From: a virus
Direction: 5' to 3' (one strand)
IMG/VR virus record: IMGVR_UViG_3300030104_003383
Coordinates: 1-31,277 of that record
DNA length: 31,277 nt
Shown here piece by piece: positions 1,094 to 28,578 of this stretch (the first letter of the stretch is position 1; the number at the start of each line of letters is the position of its first letter). A program made the translations under genes and the position numbers. The notes beneath the pieces were generated by a model that saw only the letters and a program-made list of their open reading frames with translations, was not told the origin of the DNA and ran no database searches.

Positions 1094-2293
1094 TTAAATT
1101 ACAAAGAAATCATTTCGTTTAGAATAGACACTATAAACGATATATCTTAATGCGTCTTGTAAGTGATTCATGCGATCCATAGGCTTATTTATAATAGTCC
1201 CATCCTTTAATTCATGCCAATAATAAGAATGATATTCGTCAATAAAATTTTTTGATTCATTAGATAAATAAACGTCAAATTCTTTTATTAAACTTATTCC
1301 AGCATTGATTGACCCTTGTCCTTTAATAGCACCTTTTGCATATATATTTAATCGTTTTAATTCTTCAATACTTTTTGGCTCAGCTGAATCGCAGTAAACT
1401 AAAGTGTCTTGATAACCTTTATTAATTAAAAAATTTGCTGTATCTTGATTAGTCATTCCCTTTTTATAACATATTTCATGAACGTATAATTTATCGCCTA
1501 CCTTTCGAACTTCACAAATTGCTAAGGGGTCGTTTGAAAATCCAAAGTCAAGTCCCAAATAAACATAATCAGCGTCAGGAAAATCTTTATAATTAATAAA
1601 CTTCCAATTATTATATATTTGCCGTCTTGACAAAACAGCCCTTTGACCCTGACCATACACACGCCAATAATCAACGTCCCTCTCTCTCATGCGTTCAATT
1701 TCTTTTACTAACTCAGGGCTTAAATGTTTATTATCTTTATAAGTTGTAATAAACAAATCACAGTCATTGCGTGGAATAACTTCGTCATATATCCAATGAA
1801 CGGGGTCACTTGGATTAAATGTCATAATTATAAAATCCGTTGTTCTCATATTTATTTGACGAAAATCCTCAAGTAATAATTCGTTTGTTTCCTCAAGTAA
1901 AGCAATATTTCTTTTACGTCCTCTTATTTTTTGTGGCTCATCAACTGACAGCATCTCAACTAAATGTTCAACCTCATTTTCCCCGTCATAATATTTAAAT
2001 GTATTTTCAGCTTTGTTATGAACTCCGTTCCAATAAATGCCTGTCTCTTGTAGTATATGAATAAAGTCTCTTTGAACTGACCCTTTTAGTGCTGGAAGTG
2101 TTTTTCTTATTATTGATATGACTAAGGGCTTTGTTGAATCAGTAAGTAAAAAAGCTATATATTGACAACACGCCCAAGTTTTTCCTGAGCGAGTCCCGCC
2201 TTGCATCAGTATGAATCGAGCCTTTGACTCATGTATTTGGTAAAACTGTTTATTTAAATATTGCGTTACTTCTTGTCTTCCGCTGGTTTCCAT
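1094..2293 (-). CDS. terL: Terminase large subunit
   Basis: This is the ATP-driven DNA packaging motor with a C-terminal headful/cos nuclease, 399 residues. The Walker A motif GGTRSGKT is at residues 32-39. A Walker B-like segment ending in LLEETNE is near residue 135, followed by a coupling-type segment (IIMTFNPSDP). The RNase H-like nuclease has its first acidic residue in YLGLDFGFSNDP, a second in CDSAEPKSIEEL, and a last one in MNHLQDALRY. It belongs to the Terminase_3/Terminase_6 type of pac and cos siphophages. The start overlaps the end of terS by 28 nt, as is common for this pair, and the portal gene follows. Confidence 0.95.
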   Translation of the reverse strand: METSGRQEVTQYLNKQFYQIHESKARFILMQGGTRSGKTWACCQYIAFLLTDSTKPLVISIIRKTLPALKGSVQRDFIHILQETGIYWNGVHNKAENTFKYYDGENEVEHLVEMLSVDEPQKIRGRKRNIALLEETNELLLEDFRQINMRTTDFIIMTFNPSDPVHWIYDEVIPRNDCDLFITTYKDNKHLSPELVKEIERMRERDVDYWRVYGQGQRAVLSRRQIYNNWKFINYKDFPDADYVYLGLDFGFSNDPLAICEVRKVGDKLYVHEICYKKGMTNQDTANFLINKGYQDTLVYCDSAEPKSIEELKRLNIYAKGAIKGQGSINAGISLIKEFDVYLSNESKNFIDEYHSYYWHELKDGTIINKPMDRMNHLQDALRYIVYSVYSKRNDFFVI

Positions 2294-2637
2294 TTGATTA
2301 GAGTTGATTTAATACCCCCTTGATGTTGTATTTCTTGTCTTTCAACATAACCTCGTGGCTTTGCCTTTGTTTTTAATGCAAATATAATTGACGTAGTATC
2401 GCCATTATTTATTTTTTCAACTAATTTACTCTCCAAAAAATCCATAAACCTCTCCTGAGGTTCCAGTGATTCAATATGTTTTTTAAATTCTTTATCTTTT
2501 TTTAACCAGTCATAATAAGTTGACCTATCAATCCCTATCGCATTGCAAGTTTGAGATACGTTTCCAAATGTTTTAATGTAAGCATCTGAAAAAGCCTTTT
2601 TTCGAAATTTTATGTTGGATTTTGTTGATTTTTCCAT
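2266..2637 (-). CDS. terS: Terminase small subunit
   Basis: This 123-residue protein would recognise the packaging site on phage DNA and hand it to TerL. It has a helix-turn-helix (QTCNAIGIDRSTYYDWLKKD, about residues 29-48) and a basic N-terminus. The central helical part and the C-terminal tail after SIIFALKTKAKPRGYVERQE are typical of phage small terminases. It is the first gene after the terminator at 2651-2682 and would be the first gene of the packaging/head unit. Its ATG lies only 4 nt after a TAnnTTTG box. The call rests on HTH, size and position directly before terL. Confidence 0.88.
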   Translation of the reverse strand: MEKSTKSNIKFRKKAFSDAYIKTFGNVSQTCNAIGIDRSTYYDWLKKDKEFKKHIESLEPQERFMDFLESKLVEKINNGDTTSIIFALKTKAKPRGYVERQEIQHQGGIKSTLIKWKPAEDKK

Positions 2638-2641
2638 AATA

Positions 2642-2649
2642 CAAAATTA
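2642..2649 (-). promoter_or_regulatory. Candidate -7 box abutting terS start
   Basis: The minus strand reads TAATTTTG, then TATT, then the terS ATG. A TTG lies 21 nt upstream of the box, near the expected -33 spacing, inside the loop of the preceding terminator. If the Bacteroidota convention holds, transcription would begin at or within a base or two of the start codon. Confidence 0.5.
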
Positions 2650-2650
2650 A

Positions 2651-2682
2651 TAAAAAAACATAGAGCCAATCAACTATGTTTT
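2651..2682 (-). terminator. Intrinsic terminator after early operon
   Basis: A 9-bp perfect stem (2655-2663 with 2674-2682) with a 10-nt loop is followed on the minus strand by a run of T. It lies 12 nt after the methyltransferase stop and just before terS, so it separates early from packaging transcription. The stem also reads on the plus strand but without a good T run. Confidence 0.75.
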
Positions 2683-2693
2683 ATACGAGGTTT

Positions 2694-3869
2694 TTAAAGA
2701 ACGTTTTGGCTTTTATATATTTTACCGTTGATTTTTATTTTTAAAGTATTATCTAATTTATACATTCTATCGATTATTACTTGACAGTATTTAGGGTCAA
2801 GTTCCATTCCATAACATTTTCTTTTTAGTTGGTGTGCTGCCACCATTGTTGAACCGCTACCAAGAAATCCATCAAAACACATTTTAAACTTAAAATCATT
2901 AAAAATCTCTCCAAATAACCCAACGGGTTTTTGAGTAGGATGCATCCTTGTTTTTCCTTCAAGGTTTTTATCTCCTTGTCTTATCATTCCATTCCATTGC
3001 CATTTATAAAGTTTTGCTGCTTTATCAAATGAAGTCCACGCCATTTCAACATCGGCAAAATTACCCGTATTTTGTTTATCCCATATAATCCAACACATTG
3101 AAGCGTTTAAAAAATCAGTAAAATAATTACCACCCCAAATAATAAAATTTTCCATCCCGAATGATACACAAGTATTATAAAAATCTCTTGCTGTATCAGT
3201 TGTATCATCTCCAATTATTTCTGAATATGTTTTTGATTTTACTATTTTTCCTCCTCCAATAGTTCCAAATGATTTATCCCCGCCAACTTTTTTGCCTTGA
3301 ACCACACTAATACCATAAGGAGGGTCTGTAAAAACAATATCTGCCTTTTCTCCATTCATTAGCTTTGCCAATTGTTCACTGTCTGTACTATCTCCACATA
3401 ATAAACGATGTTCACCTATTTCAATTAAATCGCCAAGCACAACGTCAACCTTTAAATTGTCTGGTTCTGTATATTCATCTTCTTCGGCTTCGGGTTCTAA
3501 CTGTGGAAAATCAGGCAAATCCAAACCCCAATCATTAAGTTTTTTTATATCCCAATCATTCGCCACAATGTCCCAATCCCATTCGCCATATCCGATATTA
3601 TCTTTTATTATAAACTCTTTTTTTTGTTCTTCTGACCAGTCAATTATCTGATTTACAGGCACTTCGAAAACTCCAGCTGCTTGTAATGCTTTAAGTCTCA
3701 TATTACCGCCCAAAACCATAAAATTTTCATCAATAACAAGTGGTCTTGTTTCTAACATTTTAGGAAAATCTTTAATTGATTTAACTAATTTTTTAAATTT
3801 TTTGTCAGAAATAAATCGGGGATTGTCTTTGTTTGGTTTAATTAATTTAATATTAATTTTTTTTACCAT
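2694..3869 (-). CDS. ParB-like domain fused to DNA methyltransferase
   Basis: This 391-residue protein has a ParB/Srx-like N-terminal domain (residues 1-110, GGNMR box at 54-58) joined by an acidic linker (125-138) to an S-adenosylmethionine-dependent DNA methylase. The catalytic DPPY is at 182-185 and precedes the FLGSGS SAM-binding motif (335-340). This is the beta order of N6-adenine/N4-cytosine enzymes, the family annotated as DNA modification methylase. It probably protects phage DNA from host restriction; the target base cannot be read here. An upstream ATG at 3914 would add 15 residues (MAFQLFGIK...) but overlaps the gene at 3880-4044. The start at 3869, after an A-rich leader, is preferred. 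Last gene of the early operon. Confidence 0.88.
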   Translation of the reverse strand: MVKKINIKLIKPNKDNPRFISDKKFKKLVKSIKDFPKMLETRPLVIDENFMVLGGNMRLKALQAAGVFEVPVNQIIDWSEEQKKEFIIKDNIGYGEWDWDIVANDWDIKKLNDWGLDLPDFPQLEPEAEEDEYTEPDNLKVDVVLGDLIEIGEHRLLCGDSTDSEQLAKLMNGEKADIVFTDPPYGISVVQGKKVGGDKSFGTIGGGKIVKSKTYSEIIGDDTTDTARDFYNTCVSFGMENFIIWGGNYFTDFLNASMCWIIWDKQNTGNFADVEMAWTSFDKAAKLYKWQWNGMIRQGDKNLEGKTRMHPTQKPVGLFGEIFNDFKFKMCFDGFLGSGSTMVAAHQLKRKCYGMELDPKYCQVIIDRMYKLDNTLKIKINGKIYKSQNVL

Positions 3870-3879
3870 GCTTTTTGTT

Positions 3880-4044
3880 TTAAATATCTTTATACCAAAT
3901 AATTGAAACGCCAAACAGTGTCAAAAATATTTGTATCATGTGAGTTGTTTCAATACTATTATCATAATTGTCGTCCATTGCAGAGTCCCAGTAGTTTACT
4001 CCTAAAGCAAAACCATAAACAGGAAAAAAACGAATTTCAAACAT
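3880..4044 (-). CDS. Small hypothetical protein, possible membrane segment
   Basis: This 54-residue ORF begins MFEIRFFPVYGFALGVNYWD and ends with a hydrophobic stretch (MIQIFLTLFGVSIIWY) followed by KDI. It overlaps the stop of the gene before it by 8 nt and stops 10 nt before the methyltransferase start, so it fills the gap exactly, as expected in a tightly packed operon. The C-terminal half could be a single transmembrane helix. No function is assigned. Confidence 0.65.
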   Translation of the reverse strand: MFEIRFFPVYGFALGVNYWDSAMDDNYDNSIETTHMIQIFLTLFGVSIIWYKDI

Positions 4045-10192: not shown

Positions 10193-10372
10193 TTAATAGT
10201 TTAAATTTATTTTTAATTGATTAAGTTTTTTTATTTCCCCAACTGAAAAAGTATTTGGATTTTTTATTCGTGAATCAAACGTTGGGCGTGTCATTTCTAA
10301 ATGTTCGAAAACTTCTCGTTTTGTTAAATTAAGTCTCCTTAATTCAGACTCTAATCGTAATTTAAAATTCAT
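10193..10372 (-). CDS. Cro-size helix-turn-helix protein
   Basis: This 59-residue protein consists almost only of a helix-turn-helix of the Cro/C1 type: ELRRLNLTKREVFEHLEMTR provides the first helices and the turn, followed by the recognition helix PTFDSRIKNP and a closing helix (SVGEIKKLNQLKI). It overlaps the preceding gene by 11 nt and is second in the early operon, 21 codons from its promoter-proximal end. Position and size fit an autoregulator acting on the paired repeats at 10602-10633; that link is inference. A general small DNA-binding role is the alternative. Confidence 0.72.
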   Translation of the reverse strand: MNFKLRLESELRRLNLTKREVFEHLEMTRPTFDSRIKNPNTFSVGEIKKLNQLKINLNY

Positions 10373-10562
10373 GTATGTTATTTATTAATTTATCATATAC
10401 TGGTTTTTTAAATCTGTCAATGATTTCCAGTTCTTTTTTGTATGCAATAGCTTGTCCAACAGAAATTTGTGAAAGTCTTTCAATATTACATTCTTTTTTT
10501 ATTTTTTCAACAAGTGTCCAATAAATAATATTTTGTTCCTCGTGATTAATATATATAGTCAT
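10362..10562 (-). CDS. First gene of early operon, hypothetical
   Basis: This 66-residue helical protein (MTIYINHEEQNIIYWTLVEK...) is the first gene after the early promoter region. Its leader contains AACAATTAAAAA just before the ATG. The family is not recognised. First-position small early genes in phages often act on host processes, but nothing here proves it. Confidence 0.62.
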   Translation of the reverse strand: MTIYINHEEQNIIYWTLVEKIKKECNIERLSQISVGQAIAYKKELEIIDRFKKPVYDKLINNIHEF

Positions 10563-10583: not shown

Positions 10584-10633
10584 CAAAGCTAATATATAAA
10601 GAATATTTTATATAACCAAAAAAATATTTTATA
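10584..10633 (-). promoter_or_regulatory. Early promoter with paired direct repeats
   Basis: On the minus strand two identical 11-mers TATAAAATATT (10633-10623 and 10612-10602) lie 21 bp apart, about two helical turns. They are followed by a TATATTAGC-like stretch and a perfect TAnnTTTG box (TAGCTTTG, 10591-10584), 21 nt before the first early gene. The same arrangement, with 20-bp spacing, is found at 26541-26586. The repeats look like operator or activator sites; the box is the likely -7 element. Confidence 0.6.
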
Positions 10634-10644
10634 TTATTTATAAA

Positions 10645-10674
10645 CCCCCTACGCCATAAATGGTTAGTAGAGGG
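10645..10674 (-). terminator. Hairpin after tail operon
   Basis: An 8-bp stem with one G-T pair (10645-10652 with 10667-10674) and an inner CCA/TGG pairing lies between the stop of the last tail gene at 10713 and the early promoter. The minus strand after it is TTTATAAAT, a weak T tract, so termination efficiency is uncertain. Confidence 0.45.
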
Positions 10675-10712: not shown

Positions 10713-11972
10713 TTAGTCAAATATGTTTACAAAAGTTGTATCAACGTCATTATCTTGGTTTGGCATATGTAAACGCATATCATAATAAGCAGCTTTTACA
10801 TCATAAGTCATACCGTCAATATAACATGAAACGGGGTCTTGATAAGTTTCACCGCCAAAATCAATATGTACTTTATTATGTAATCCAATATGTTTTGTAG
10901 ATTTATTGCAAAATGTACCAGTATAACGAGTTAAAAAATTTCTATAATCATTCATTTGTTCAATTGTAACAATTTGCTCCATACTCTTTGCGGTGCTATC
11001 TCTTAGCCTTTTAAAAGTTCCGTCATACTTTCCAATAAAATAATCCGTTGTTTTTGCAGCGTTTGAAATAGTATTATCCTCATTTAAATACTCGCCTGAA
11101 AAATTTCCGTTTGCGGGAACTTGTTTTCGTCTTGAAATTAGCAAATCACTATCAATATCGTTAGTCTCTGCAATGTAAAAATTGTCAATGTAAATAGCTT
11201 GAAAATTACCGGTTCCACCCCCTGACAAAAAAGGTCTGTTAATAGTTATATTAACAAATACATCAGTTGATACGCTTGCCGAATCATATGGCTCTATCTC
11301 AAATTGTACTTTTCCCCAATTGTTAACTGTTTCAGTGTTAACAGTTCTGTATCTATTTAATCCAGTAACTGACCCAGCATCTTTCCATTGTTTATCTTGA
11401 AAAGCATACCTTTTTAAATCTGTTCCCGAACTGTAAGACTCATCCAAACCTGCCTCAACTTTAAAAATATATTTTTCAGTATCATCAGTAGTTTTAATAT
11501 GATAATTAAAACCAACTTTTAATTTTTTTCCTTGTGAAATAGTATTATGTTGTTTATCAATTGAAATTAAAGGATCGACAAAACCTGACACACTTGTTGC
11601 ATCATCTTGAGAAAAAAAGTATTTACCACCCGTTAAAGCGTCAACAGTTTCACTTGCGTCACTTCTAACGTCACTCGTTTTTCCCGCTTGTGGTGTTGCT
11701 ATAATAAATTTTGAATCTCCATTAATAAAATTAGCATTTTCATTTTTAAAATTTAAAGGTTCTAACTCAGTTTGAAATTCAACTTTTTTTAGTGGGCGTT
11801 CCCTTTCAATAATTAAATCAGAATTAACGCCTTGTAATTCTAAAGGTGTGTTAATTAAAATGTTTTCATCTTCGGTTCTTAAATATGTTCCTTCAGAGTC
11901 AAAAACTTTATAAGTGATTTGTTCTTTGTTATTTGCGAGTAAGTTAGATTGTTGCGTTTGTATTGATGCCAT
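10713..11972 (-). CDS. Tail-tip or receptor-binding protein
   Basis: This 419-residue protein is the last gene of the tail operon. Residues about 1-60 are polar. A central region (about 105-275, YFFSQDDATSVSGFVDPLIS ... IYIDNFYIAETND) reads like a beta-sandwich of carbohydrate-binding type. The C-terminal part (GLHNKVHIDFGGETYQDPVS ... MRLHMPN) resembles the end of baseplate-associated tail proteins of Bacteroidota phages. It follows the large tail protein by 11 nt and probably works with it at the tail tip, perhaps in host binding. No enzymatic motif is seen. Confidence 0.6.
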   Translation of the reverse strand: MASIQTQQSNLLANNKEQITYKVFDSEGTYLRTEDENILINTPLELQGVNSDLIIERERPLKKVEFQTELEPLNFKNENANFINGDSKFIIATPQAGKTSDVRSDASETVDALTGGKYFFSQDDATSVSGFVDPLISIDKQHNTISQGKKLKVGFNYHIKTTDDTEKYIFKVEAGLDESYSSGTDLKRYAFQDKQWKDAGSVTGLNRYRTVNTETVNNWGKVQFEIEPYDSASVSTDVFVNITINRPFLSGGGTGNFQAIYIDNFYIAETNDIDSDLLISRRKQVPANGNFSGEYLNEDNTISNAAKTTDYFIGKYDGTFKRLRDSTAKSMEQIVTIEQMNDYRNFLTRYTGTFCNKSTKHIGLHNKVHIDFGGETYQDPVSCYIDGMTYDVKAAYYDMRLHMPNQDNDVDTTFVNIFD

Positions 11973-16327: not shown

Positions 16328-16335
16328 CAAAAATA
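16328..16335 (-). promoter_or_regulatory. Candidate -7 box abutting tape measure start
   Basis: The minus strand reads TATTTTTG, then TACT, then the tape measure ATG. A TTG lies 23 nt upstream of the box. Same layout as before terS and the prohead protease. Confidence 0.45.
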
Positions 16336-25074: not shown

Positions 25075-25082
25075 CAAAGATA
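25075..25082 (-). promoter_or_regulatory. Candidate -7 box for connector/tail operon
   Basis: The minus strand reads TATCTTTG directly after the T run of the terminator, 17 nt before the ATG at 25057. It would restart late transcription downstream of the accessory cassette. Confidence 0.5.
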
Positions 25083-25117
25083 AAAAAAAAGTGCCACTAA
25101 GAGAGATGACACTTTTT
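25082..25117 (-). terminator. Intrinsic terminator after nuclease gene
   Basis: An 11-bp stem with one G-T pair (25086-25096 with 25107-25117) and a 10-nt loop is followed on the minus strand by further T residues. It lies 31 nt after the nuclease stop and ends the accessory cassette. Confidence 0.8.
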
Positions 25118-25148: not shown

Positions 25149-25520
25149 CTAATTAAATGCAAAGTTATCAAAATAAATTGAACTTTTTCCCGTTGTTGAT
25201 AATCTTATTGACTGCATATTACCACTATTAGGAAAATTAAAAAATCCACCAAAATATTCTGAGTAAACACAAAACCAATCTATTTTATCAATTGTATATT
25301 TATTATCTAAATTTCTTAAAGGTAATTGAACCGATTTTCTATTTTTTAAAGGAGTTTTTTGAGTTGATTTTATTTGAATTTTTTTAAGGCTTCCATTTAC
25401 GTCGATTATACAATCATAAACGCTTGAATCTAATATTGGCATTGATACAATAAACCCTCTTTTAGTACATTCAGACGCAAATAAATATTCCGCAAAACAT
25501 CCTAAATGATTAGAGTCCAT
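25149..25520 (-). CDS. PD-(D/E)XK nuclease in accessory cassette
   Basis: This 123-residue protein has the compact nuclease core of the PD-(D/E)XK type: Glu11 in GCFAEYLFASEC, Asp36 in SVYDCIID, and Gln49-Ile-Lys51 in KKIQIKST. The pattern G-x-x-A-E-Y ... Y-D ... I-Q-x-K-S-T is that of the group holding intron homing-type and restriction-like enzymes (PDDEXK_5). The C-terminal half (IDWFCVYSEYFGGFFNFP) fits the family. It may be a free-standing homing endonuclease or an enzyme against competing DNA. It is bracketed by terminators at 25532-25565 and 25082-25117, so it may be a separate unit with a near-consensus TATCTTTA box 7 nt before its ATG. Confidence 0.75.
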   Translation of the reverse strand: MDSNHLGCFAEYLFASECTKRGFIVSMPILDSSVYDCIIDVNGSLKKIQIKSTQKTPLKNRKSVQLPLRNLDNKYTIDKIDWFCVYSEYFGGFFNFPNSGNMQSIRLSTTGKSSIYFDNFAFN

Positions 25521-25531
25521 TTAGTAAAGAT

Positions 25532-25565
25532 AAAAAAAACCGCCCTAATGATATTTTAAGACGGT
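25532..25565 (-). terminator. Intrinsic terminator after tiny-gene operon
   Basis: A 10-bp stem with two G-T pairs (25539-25548 with 25556-25565) and a 7-nt loop is followed by eight T on the minus strand. It lies between the Zn-finger gene stop (25585) and the nuclease start (25520). Confidence 0.8.
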
Positions 25566-25584
25566 CTAATCAAATGAAAATTCT

Positions 25585-25749
25585 TTATGATAAATATGAC
25601 TCATGACAAAAATCGTCACAAAATTCACCTTGCGAAACTTCACCGCAAGTCATACAATTATGTAATTGAATATTTAAAACAGGATATTCTTTGTCATCAT
25701 AATCGGGAGGCGTTAATTCCCTGTCTGGTATTCTAAAATAATTATTCAT
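25585..25749 (-). CDS. Small zinc-ribbon-like protein
   Basis: This 54-residue protein (MNNYFRIPDRELTPPDYDDK...) carries two Cys pairs: Cys32-x2-Cys35 (CMTC) and Cys44-x3-Cys48-His (CDDFCH), spacing that suits a zinc knuckle. The rest is acidic. It begins 8 nt inside the previous gene and is followed by a terminator, so it is the last of the coupled tiny genes. A protein-binding or nucleic-acid-binding adaptor is plausible; nothing more can be shown. Confidence 0.65.
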   Translation of the reverse strand: MNNYFRIPDRELTPPDYDDKEYPVLNIQLHNCMTCGEVSQGEFCDDFCHESYLS

Positions 25750-25840
25750 TTATTTCAATGTTATCCTCGTTATGATCGTAAACAACTGCGCTGGTTATTG
25801 TTCTATTAATTTTATTTATGTCAATCTTGTCGTCAATCAT
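25742..25840 (-). CDS. 32-residue acidic peptide ORF
   Basis: The short acidic ORF MIDDKIDINKINRTITSAVV... overlaps the genes on both sides by 8 nt. Its only support is the chained overlap within a run of coupled genes. Unknown function; may be a translational link rather than an active protein. Confidence 0.42.
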   Translation of the reverse strand: MIDDKIDINKINRTITSAVVYDHNEDNIEINE

Positions 25841-25991
25841 TTGGCGTGTATTTGAAAATAATTGCAGAAAATAATATCATAATTATGGCGTCAATATTTG
25901 CATCATATTTAACGACCATACGAAACGCCCAAAATAAAGGTGCTATTATTAAAAAAACCCTTACAATATATTTTATATCTCTATCGTCCAT
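25833..25991 (-). CDS. Small two-helix membrane protein
   Basis: This 52-residue protein from the ATG at 25991 (MDDRDIKYIVRVFLIIAPLF...) has two transmembrane segments (about 10-25 and 33-48, ending in FKYTPND). A longer form from 26063 adds a hydrophobic leader but would overlap the previous gene by 83 nt; with the shorter start the overlap is 11 nt, like the other genes here. A small inner-membrane protein expressed early would suit an exclusion or host-inhibition role; inference only. Confidence 0.55.
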   Translation of the reverse strand: MDDRDIKYIVRVFLIIAPLFWAFRMVVKYDANIDAIIMILFSAIIFKYTPND

Positions 25992-26178
25992 TTCTAAAAT
26001 TTTCAATATTAATTGGATGAATAAAAGATAAATCAAACCAAACAAAAACAATCCAAGTTGCAAATAATATTAAATCAAATAAAATTGCTAATGCTATTAT
26101 AATTAAAATTGTTTTTAGTTTATATTTTCTTTTTATTGTATAAACAACATCGTTAAACGATCTAATTAATGACATCAT
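25981..26178 (-). CDS. Small membrane protein
   Basis: This 65-residue protein has a basic N-terminus (MMSLIRSFNDVVYTIKRKYK) and a long hydrophobic region (about 22-48, TILIIIALAILFDLILFATW...) that can make one or two membrane helices. It overlaps its upstream neighbour by 4 nt and its downstream neighbour by 11 nt. Not recognised as a known family. Confidence 0.55.
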   Translation of the reverse strand: MMSLIRSFNDVVYTIKRKYKLKTILIIIALAILFDLILFATWIVFVWFDLSFIHPINIENFRNGR

Positions 26179-26372
26179 AATTCAGATAATTTTTTTAATT
26201 TTCTCCAAACCTTGAGTTCATTTATATTATATAAAATAGCTAAAACAGTTTGTTCATATGTGCTATTATATAAAGAATTATGTCTTTTTTTAAATGATTG
26301 ATTTACTTTTACCTCTAAATGTAGAATATTAGAATAAATTTTATTTTTAGCTTTTTGTTTTATATTTATCAT
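26175..26372 (-). CDS. Small basic hypothetical protein
   Basis: This 65-residue, strongly basic, helical protein (MINIKQKAKNKIYSNILHLE, then KVNQSFKKRHNSLYNS) ends KVWRKLKKLSEL. It starts in an ATGA overlap with the first gene of the cassette. It may bind nucleic acid or membrane; unknown. Confidence 0.55.
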   Translation of the reverse strand: MINIKQKAKNKIYSNILHLEVKVNQSFKKRHNSLYNSTYEQTVLAILYNINELKVWRKLKKLSEL

Positions 26373-26521
26373 TGAGTCATTAATATTATTTCAACGGGGT
26401 TTTTTGTACCGTATTTTTTTTCAATTCTGTCTAAAAATTCAAGGTCTCTAATTGTTTCAATATTGTTTTTAACTGCTCTTAATGCAATTCTTATCATTTC
26501 AATTTCTAATGGTTTATACAT
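26369..26521 (-). CDS. First gene of accessory cassette, hypothetical
   Basis: This 50-residue helical protein (MYKPLEIEMIRIALRAVKNN...) ends VEIILMTQ. It is the first gene after the second copy of the early-type promoter region. Its leader carries AACAATTAAAAAAATAATT before the ATG, nearly the same as that of the first early gene at 10562, although the proteins themselves show no obvious similarity. Function unknown. Confidence 0.55.
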   Translation of the reverse strand: MYKPLEIEMIRIALRAVKNNIETIRDLEFLDRIEKKYGTKNPVEIILMTQ

Positions 26522-26540
26522 AATTATTTTTTTAATTGTT

Positions 26541-26586
26541 TATGCTAATATAAGAAATATTTTATATATAGCAAAAATATTTTATA
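26541..26586 (-). promoter_or_regulatory. Second copy of early promoter/operator region
   Basis: On the minus strand two TATAAAATATT copies (26586-26576 and 26566-26556) lie 20 bp apart, then TTATATTAGC and ATAAACAATTAAAAA before the ATG at 26521. It matches the region upstream of the early operon at 10584-10633, except that the TTTG of the -7 box is missing (TAGCATAA instead of TAGCTTTG). Hence a related control region, perhaps of different strength. Confidence 0.6.
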
Positions 26587-26614: not shown

Positions 26615-26639
26615 AAAAAAAGGGGGTATAAAACCCCCT
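26615..26639 (-). terminator. Strong terminator after major capsid gene
   Basis: A 7-bp GC-rich stem (26621-26627 with 26633-26639) with a 5-nt loop is followed by six more T on the minus strand, 25 nt after the capsid stop. It isolates capsid transcription from the cassette promoter region at 26541-26586. Confidence 0.85.
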
Positions 26640-28570: not shown

Positions 28571-28578
28571 CAAAGATA
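28571..28578 (-). promoter_or_regulatory. Candidate -7 box abutting protease start
   Basis: The minus strand reads TATCTTTG, then TATT, then the protease ATG; a TTG lies 23 nt upstream. Same layout as at terS and the tape measure gene. Confidence 0.48.

Follow-up and report, generated by a model that had tools for sequence, protein, structure and literature searches.

A predicted host-type promoter class precedes both the early operon and a variable accessory cassette in a probable Bacteroidota phage

The window, that is, the whole stretch of phage DNA analysed here (W, 31,277 bases), carries a cassette of small genes on its minus strand between the terminator of the major capsid protein (MCP) gene and g61 and the connector genes. 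A second site of interest lies ahead of the 10.6-kb operon, whose label as early rests on its replication genes and HTH gene. Both sites were compared with related contigs (G001-G016) and related MCP loci (L numbers); a search of IMG/VR with the MCP protein yielded 80 related loci, and a search for early-region relatives with the tail and HTH proteins yielded one contig only. The features at the MCP site and then at the early site are as follows.

26621-26639, minus strand: intrinsic terminator of the MCP gene (palindromic stem), directly upstream of the cassette promoter
26576-26586, minus strand: first 11-mer TATAAAATATT, UP-like A-tract of the cassette promoter (AAAA nearly invariant in 20 aligned promoters)
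26572-26575, minus strand: -33 box TTTG of the cassette promoter, read from the sequence and kept at the MCP site of relatives
26556-26566, minus strand: second 11-mer, spacer A-tract of the cassette promoter, within the N19 spacer 26553-26571
26545-26552, minus strand: -7 box TATATTAG of the cassette promoter; predicted transcription start about 5 nt downstream
26522-26540, minus strand: predicted A-rich leader of the cassette mRNA, read from the sequence; similarity to sister phages is lost 2-5 nt from the predicted start
26369-26521, minus strand: c10, 50-aa ORF, promoter-proximal cassette gene (ORF list, family clustering)
26175-26372, minus strand: c7, 65-aa ORF (ORF list, family clustering)
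25981-26178, minus strand: c8, 65-aa hydrophobic ORF (ORF list, family clustering)
25833-25991, minus strand: c0, 52-aa hydrophobic ORF with its ATG at 25991, of the core cassette genes the one shared most widely (41 members)
25585-25749, minus strand: c9, 54-aa Cys-rich ORF (ORF list, family clustering)
25537-25567, minus strand: terminator before the PD-(D/E)XK gene, with an equivalent in 60 of 62 loci
25149-25520, minus strand: PD-(D/E)XK endonuclease (PF11645, E 4.8e-12), conserved distal cassette gene
25086-25117, minus strand: terminator closing the cassette, with an equivalent in 59 of 61 loci
25075-25082, minus strand: -7 box TATCTTTG before the next late gene (25057), from the late-signal scan
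10645-10674, minus strand: hairpin that follows the tail gene 10713-11972 and immediately precedes the early promoter, conserved in G013, with a weak T run
10623-10633, minus strand: first 11-mer, UP-like A-tract of the early promoter (exact-match search)
10617-10620, minus strand: -33 box TTTG of the early promoter, read from the sequence
10602-10612, minus strand: second 11-mer, spacer A-tract of the early promoter (spacer N20)
10589-10596, minus strand: -7 box TATATTAG of the early promoter, with the overlapping alternative TAGCTTTG at 10584-10591
10362-10562, minus strand: first early gene, 66 aa (ORF list)
10193-10372, minus strand: HTH-like protein, 59 aa, a possible early-promoter regulator (weak phage-repressor match, phrog_4583, E 0.0019)

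A TTG-started 76-aa ORF (25833-26063) is better read as the 52-aa c0 protein from the ATG at 25991, and an Rfam search of the window gave no match. The contig ends (1-1058 and 29445-31277) hold overlapping, non-identical portal sequence (MQIESDGI versus MQIESGGI), which looks more like population variants joined in assembly than like a clean terminal repeat.

The first-pass annotation had described one layout upstream of both the early operon and the cassette, and this was borne out. An exact search of the window found four copies of the 11-mer TATAAAATATT, all of them on the minus strand and arranged as two pairs, one at the early site (10623-10633 and 10602-10612, 21 bp apart) and one at the MCP site (26576-26586 and 26556-26566, 20 bp apart); 300 dinucleotide-preserving shuffles of the window produced no such pair against the two observed, and a looser pair, AAAATATT, arose on average 0.02 times per shuffle, again against two observed. 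Local alignment of the two regions of ~90 bp scored 80, compared with 45 for the next-best place in the window, and the TATATTAGC stretch and the AAACAATTAAAAA leader were found at both sites. The motif search in related phages that had been proposed alongside this description recovered eight AAAATATT pairs in 13 related contigs, seven of them at early or accessory-gene promoters. Across all of IMG/VR the paired 11-mer was found in 27 stretches, mostly in unrelated AT-rich contexts and once as the early promoter of a sister phage, and with 27 stretches in the whole database we rejected the interpretation that it is a widespread random motif.

The primary sigma consensus of Bacteroidota comprises TTTG at -33 and TAnnTTTG at -7 (PMC7366714; PMC9723704). 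In both window regions an A-tract near -43 precedes TTTG at -33, a further A-tract follows in the spacer at a distance of 20-21 bp from the first, and TATATTAG stands as the -7 box; we infer from this layout that they are Bacteroidota-type (sigma-A) host promoters of one strong-looking class, with promoter activity predicted at each. TATATTAG follows TTTG by 19 nt at the cassette (TTTG-N19, TTTG at 26572-26575) and by 20 nt at the early site (TTTG-N20, TTTG at 10617-10620), as expected of the -33 element of a Bacteroidota sigma-A promoter, and relatives are alike in this respect. The box differs from TAnnTTTG at one of six conserved bases; the -7 form of the class is TATATTWR, followed by an A-rich leader of ~20 nt, and at the MCP site of relatives the box is mostly TATATTTG. 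The earlier observation that the second copy lacks the TTTG of the -7 box was thus largely a register error, the conserved -7 box being TATATTAG, present at both sites. TAGCTTTG (10584-10591), the box chosen previously, lies 25 nt from TTTG, and the sister phage has TAGCATTA there; we rejected it as the -7 box, and its overlapping use as such at the early site of the window is possible.

These elements are conserved well beyond the window. A -33/-7 scan of the 420 bases behind the MCP gene, which was permissive in that the best match was taken regardless of quality, found a recognisable promoter behind the MCP terminator in about three quarters of the 80 relatives, a figure that is an estimate because the scan picked clearly wrong places in some loci (for example L033, L074 and L090). 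Twenty promoters, 19 of the MCP site and one early, were hand-picked from the scan output and aligned; they come from related sequences, so that the counts are not independent. The A-tracts, the -33 box and the -7 box are conserved among them, and AAAA shows little or no variation at positions -43 to -40 and -23 to -20. Since both A-tracts are conserved in this alignment, the paired 11-mer is the local form of the A-tracts of a widely kept promoter. The spacing of two helical turns, previously read as the sign of a protein bound to one face of the DNA, is accounted for by the promoter architecture, because the UP-like tract and the spacer tract flank the -33 box. L034-L042 carry another subtype at the MCP site, TTTG-N20-TTACTTTG. 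In G002 and G003 the MCP-site promoter is conserved while four-fold codon positions of the MCP gene are only 54-56% identical.

Behind this promoter, the cassette has firm borders and variable contents. A terminator lies within 130 nt of the MCP stop in all 80 loci examined, and the PD-(D/E)XK gene is present in 62 of 81 MCP loci, many of the remainder being too short to judge. The first ORF behind the promoter falls into 36 families in 39 distinct arrangements (28 seen once), compared with nine families for the last ORF; c10, for instance, stands behind two other ORFs in L030 and L031 and behind one in L033, and is absent from L032. Two loci, L090 and L091, have no promoter, cassette or nuclease and run MCP-terminator-g61-connector, an empty site that fits gain or loss of the cassette alike, and since the promoter is gone together with the cassette, it is part of the inserted unit. 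The encoded proteins are small and mostly without assignment, with few Pfam matches among 75 representatives. An anti-defence role was considered for them and set aside, as the same 75 representatives gave only single weak PADLOC matches (best E 0.0013). Movement of cassette genes between sites was likewise rejected, as no families were common to the sites except a DUF3310 gene. It occurs in the cassettes of L100 and L105, and a related gene lies in the G016 early region, a single case that fits early cassette timing.

To compare sites across genomes, a matrix was trained on 12 MCP-site promoters from outside the genus of the window (rows hand-picked from the scan output), and both strands of the window were scanned with it. 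The early promoter ranked first (28.8) and the cassette promoter second (25.2), followed by a match inside a gene (16.5). High matches in related contigs were mostly at early or accessory sites, namely at the MCP site, between the methyltransferase or primase gene and that for terminase, and at an antisense gene of the tail region. In the second of these places, the class precedes accessory genes in G005 (15052), G008 (2542), G010 (22292) and G012 (4138); at the MCP site of G008 (29304/29319) and G012 (30314/30329), two opposed promoters of the class form a divergent pair. Late genes have a different signal: TAnnTTTG ends exactly 4 nt before the ATG at 27 of 527 ORF starts, compared with 0.1% of control ATGs, and the genes so marked include terS, the tape measure and the protease (2642-2649, 16328-16335 and 28571-28578, with equivalents in G001-G016). 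As the -7 box spans -12 to -5 in published coordinates (PMC9723704), a 4-nt gap would place the start of late mRNAs at the A of the ATG, and late structural mRNAs are predicted to be leaderless. In F. psychrophilum, leaderless transcripts make up 5.5% of mapped mRNAs. The A-tract or the -33 box taken singly proved too weak to separate the classes, A-tracts being found in both in this AT-rich DNA.

Because the matrix links the two sites and late genes use another signal, we assign the cassette promoter to the early class, an assignment that supports the presence of an early-class promoter amid late genes. The earlier prediction that the cassette is co-regulated with early genes is upheld as far as promoter class goes (matrix ranking, distinct late signal), and its early timing would follow from that class. 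The cassette has its own predicted promoter (26545-26586) and terminators (25537-25567 and 25086-25117), and relatives have or lack it at the same place (absent in L090 and L091); to judge by these features, it is a moron-like, terminator-bounded unit under a putative early-class host promoter, from which early expression is predicted.

An alternative interpretation is that the likeness of the two regions reflects convergence of strong AT-rich host promoters, and that the cassette promoter is constitutive or a late booster for connector and tail genes. The promoter elements do fit the known host consensus, a promoter behind the MCP terminator could resupply genes downstream, and the A-rich leaders would be expected anyway, as Flavobacteria lack Shine-Dalgarno signals and such leaders are expected there. 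We nevertheless consider this unlikely because the cassette is cut off from the connector genes by two terminators, the late gene that follows is preceded by a TATCTTTG box of its own, the matrix sets the class apart from late promoters and the promoter is absent where the cassette is absent (L090/L091).

The paired 11-mers might instead be operators of a phage regulator, most likely the HTH protein of the early operon, that represses or activates both units jointly. That operon does encode a small HTH-like protein (the phrog_4583 match listed above), homologues of it stand at the start of the early operon in most related contigs, and the spacer is conserved far beyond what a plain promoter would lead one to expect, W and G013 being identical over 45 bp. 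However, the repeats are direct rather than inverted and sit exactly at the UP and spacer positions relative to the -33 and -7 boxes, and the same tracts recur in distant phages whose promoter sequence otherwise differs; we judge joint control by such a regulator improbable, and binding of the HTH protein at the 11-mers, which the promoter reading does not require, is unsupported though conceivable.

The identities between sites bear on a further claim of the first-pass annotation, that the control region itself has been copied. The early promoter is 100% identical between W and G013 over 45 bp and the MCP-site promoter 90-93% identical between W and G001, G002 and G003, compared with 87% between the early and MCP-site promoters within the window. 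Orthologues are closer than the two window copies, which argues that the two sites diverged before these phages did; on these figures, and with a promoter there in about three quarters of the relatives, the MCP-downstream promoter is old and not a recent copy. Recent duplication is ruled out on the same grounds, and an ancient duplication is what is left of the original claim. The 87% identity itself, the leader motif common to both sites and the cross-site likeness of control regions in G008 and G012 (tail site versus MCP site, 75% over 114 bp in one search and 66-71% over stretches of ~150-220 bp in others) would suit transfer of the control region from the early operon into the head region, recently or anciently and possibly with accessory genes, but given that orthologous sites are more alike than copies within a genome and that distant relatives also carry the promoter at the MCP site, we hold any such copying to be quite improbable. 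A non-transcriptional role for the repeats, as replication-origin iterons or otherwise, can be dismissed almost entirely: their direct orientation and spacing of about two helical turns in AT-rich DNA, and the SPP1 origin inside its late-region moron segment (PMC6316719), lend the idea some appeal, but there are only two copies per site, in a position fixed relative to the -33 and -7 boxes, and conservation stops at the predicted transcription start.

Returning to the promoter reading, the same junction marks where related genomes part. In the sister phages G008 and G012 (~92% identical), which retain three promoters of the class, the gene immediately behind each is a different one, and permissive BLAST places the edges of homology 23-41 nt past the predicted transcription start in all three cases. 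The edges lie 2-5 nt from the predicted start between W and G001, G002 and G003 at the MCP site, three comparisons that share one promoter and are not independent, and 10 nt from it between W and G013 at the early site. Random positions are equally close with a frequency of 0.002 to 0.066 per comparison; the phage pairs are related, which makes their counts non-independent, break positions depend on alignment settings, and the promoter list was taken from earlier matches. As the promoter stays while the adjoining gene is repeatedly swapped, it seems to serve as a fixed landing point at which new genes arrive. These break points indicate that gene exchange repeatedly has its upstream border at the terminator-promoter junction, with recombination the presumed mechanism, and genes entering at the landing point are probably expressed early. 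At 2266-3914 the window carries a methyltransferase gene and a terS that differs from the one in its sister contigs G001, G002 and G013, an apparent exchange of terS and the gene next to it.

We therefore favour, as the probable reading, a model in which one host-type promoter class starts both the early operon and the terminator-bounded cassette, and in which the junction is a gene-exchange border. The strong-looking promoter would start transcription of the early operon and of the MCP-downstream cassette, and, with a host-type promoter before it, the cassette should be read by host RNA polymerase from the start of infection. Neighbouring late genes would rely on the lone TAnnTTTG exactly 4 nt before their ATG, and genes would be gained or swapped between related phages behind the terminator-promoter junction as a fixed upstream border. 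A more specific version is that the arrangement is dedicated to gene capture, with the early-class promoter fixed at three to four sites (early operon, MCP site, methyltransferase-terminase interval and tail region), new genes behind it expressed early, the PD-(D/E)XK protein at the far end of the MCP-site cassette promoting exchange, and late genes leaderless; we put this forward tentatively, as a possibility with the balance against it.

The promoter type, together with primase and MCP matches that include phages of Flavobacterium, Tenacibaculum and Cellulophaga, points to Bacteroidota, likely Flavobacteriia, as the probable host phylum of this marine phage. A prophage search was uninformative as to host, the single genome match being a phage contig in a Woesearchaeota MAG. 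That contig, L139 (57% MCP identity), is binned in a MAG of a Woesearchaeota archaeon (PBPJ01000031.1), probably through a binning error. For uncultured marine phages of probable Flavobacteriia, the two signatures, one early or accessory and one late structural, would amount to a readable promoter code that permits timing to be predicted from sequence. The cassette would also provide a defined slot from which to collect small accessory proteins across ~80 related loci, plausibly early host-takeover or counter-defence genes.

Several known systems resemble parts of this arrangement. Like acr-aca operons (PMC9410906), the cassette would place small accessory proteins under a strong host-like promoter at the start of infection. 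It differs in having neither an Aca-type HTH gene nor an inverted repeat: profile matches of the cassette proteins in the window included no HTH, and the promoter repeats are direct, with no inverted-repeat operator. The late-region moron of SPP1 (PMC6316719) is likewise a segment bracketed by transcription signals that interrupts conserved virion assembly genes; the SPP1 segment differs in including oriR, and the likeness is one of layout. In T4-like phages, novel ORFs carry early promoters with an A-rich tract at -40 to -44 that has been likened to an UP element (Nolan et al. 2006, PMC1524935), and late promoters precede only conserved late genes (PMC1524935). The likeness is that an early-class promoter with an A-rich tract stands before novel ORFs; here, in contrast, a small phage has that promoter amid its structural genes, and its late genes are marked by a predicted leaderless signal rather than a T4-type late promoter.

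The closest comparison is with the promoter early stem-loops (PeSLs) of T4-type phages (Arbiol et al. 2010; Comeau et al. 2014), as summarized in PMC4503421 and PMC3950731: a host-like early promoter beside a stem-loop, where close relatives shuffle genes. Here too a promoter, of predicted early class, accompanies a hairpin, which precedes the first 11-mer by ~35 bp at the MCP site and by ~11 bp at the early site, and exchange borders fall at the element, at its upstream border only, 2-41 nt from the predicted start. Measured against that summary, the elements differ in that copies are few per genome (two in the window, about four in G008 and G012), that the stem-loop lies upstream of the promoter as part of the terminator of the preceding gene, and that a Bacteroidota promoter is combined with a slot that is conserved towards its distal end. 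We do not class the promoter-cassette unit as a PeSL, since it lacks the high density of copies typical of those elements. The arrangement would nonetheless extend the T4-type idea of promoter cassettes that guide gene shuffling to small phages of another phylum.
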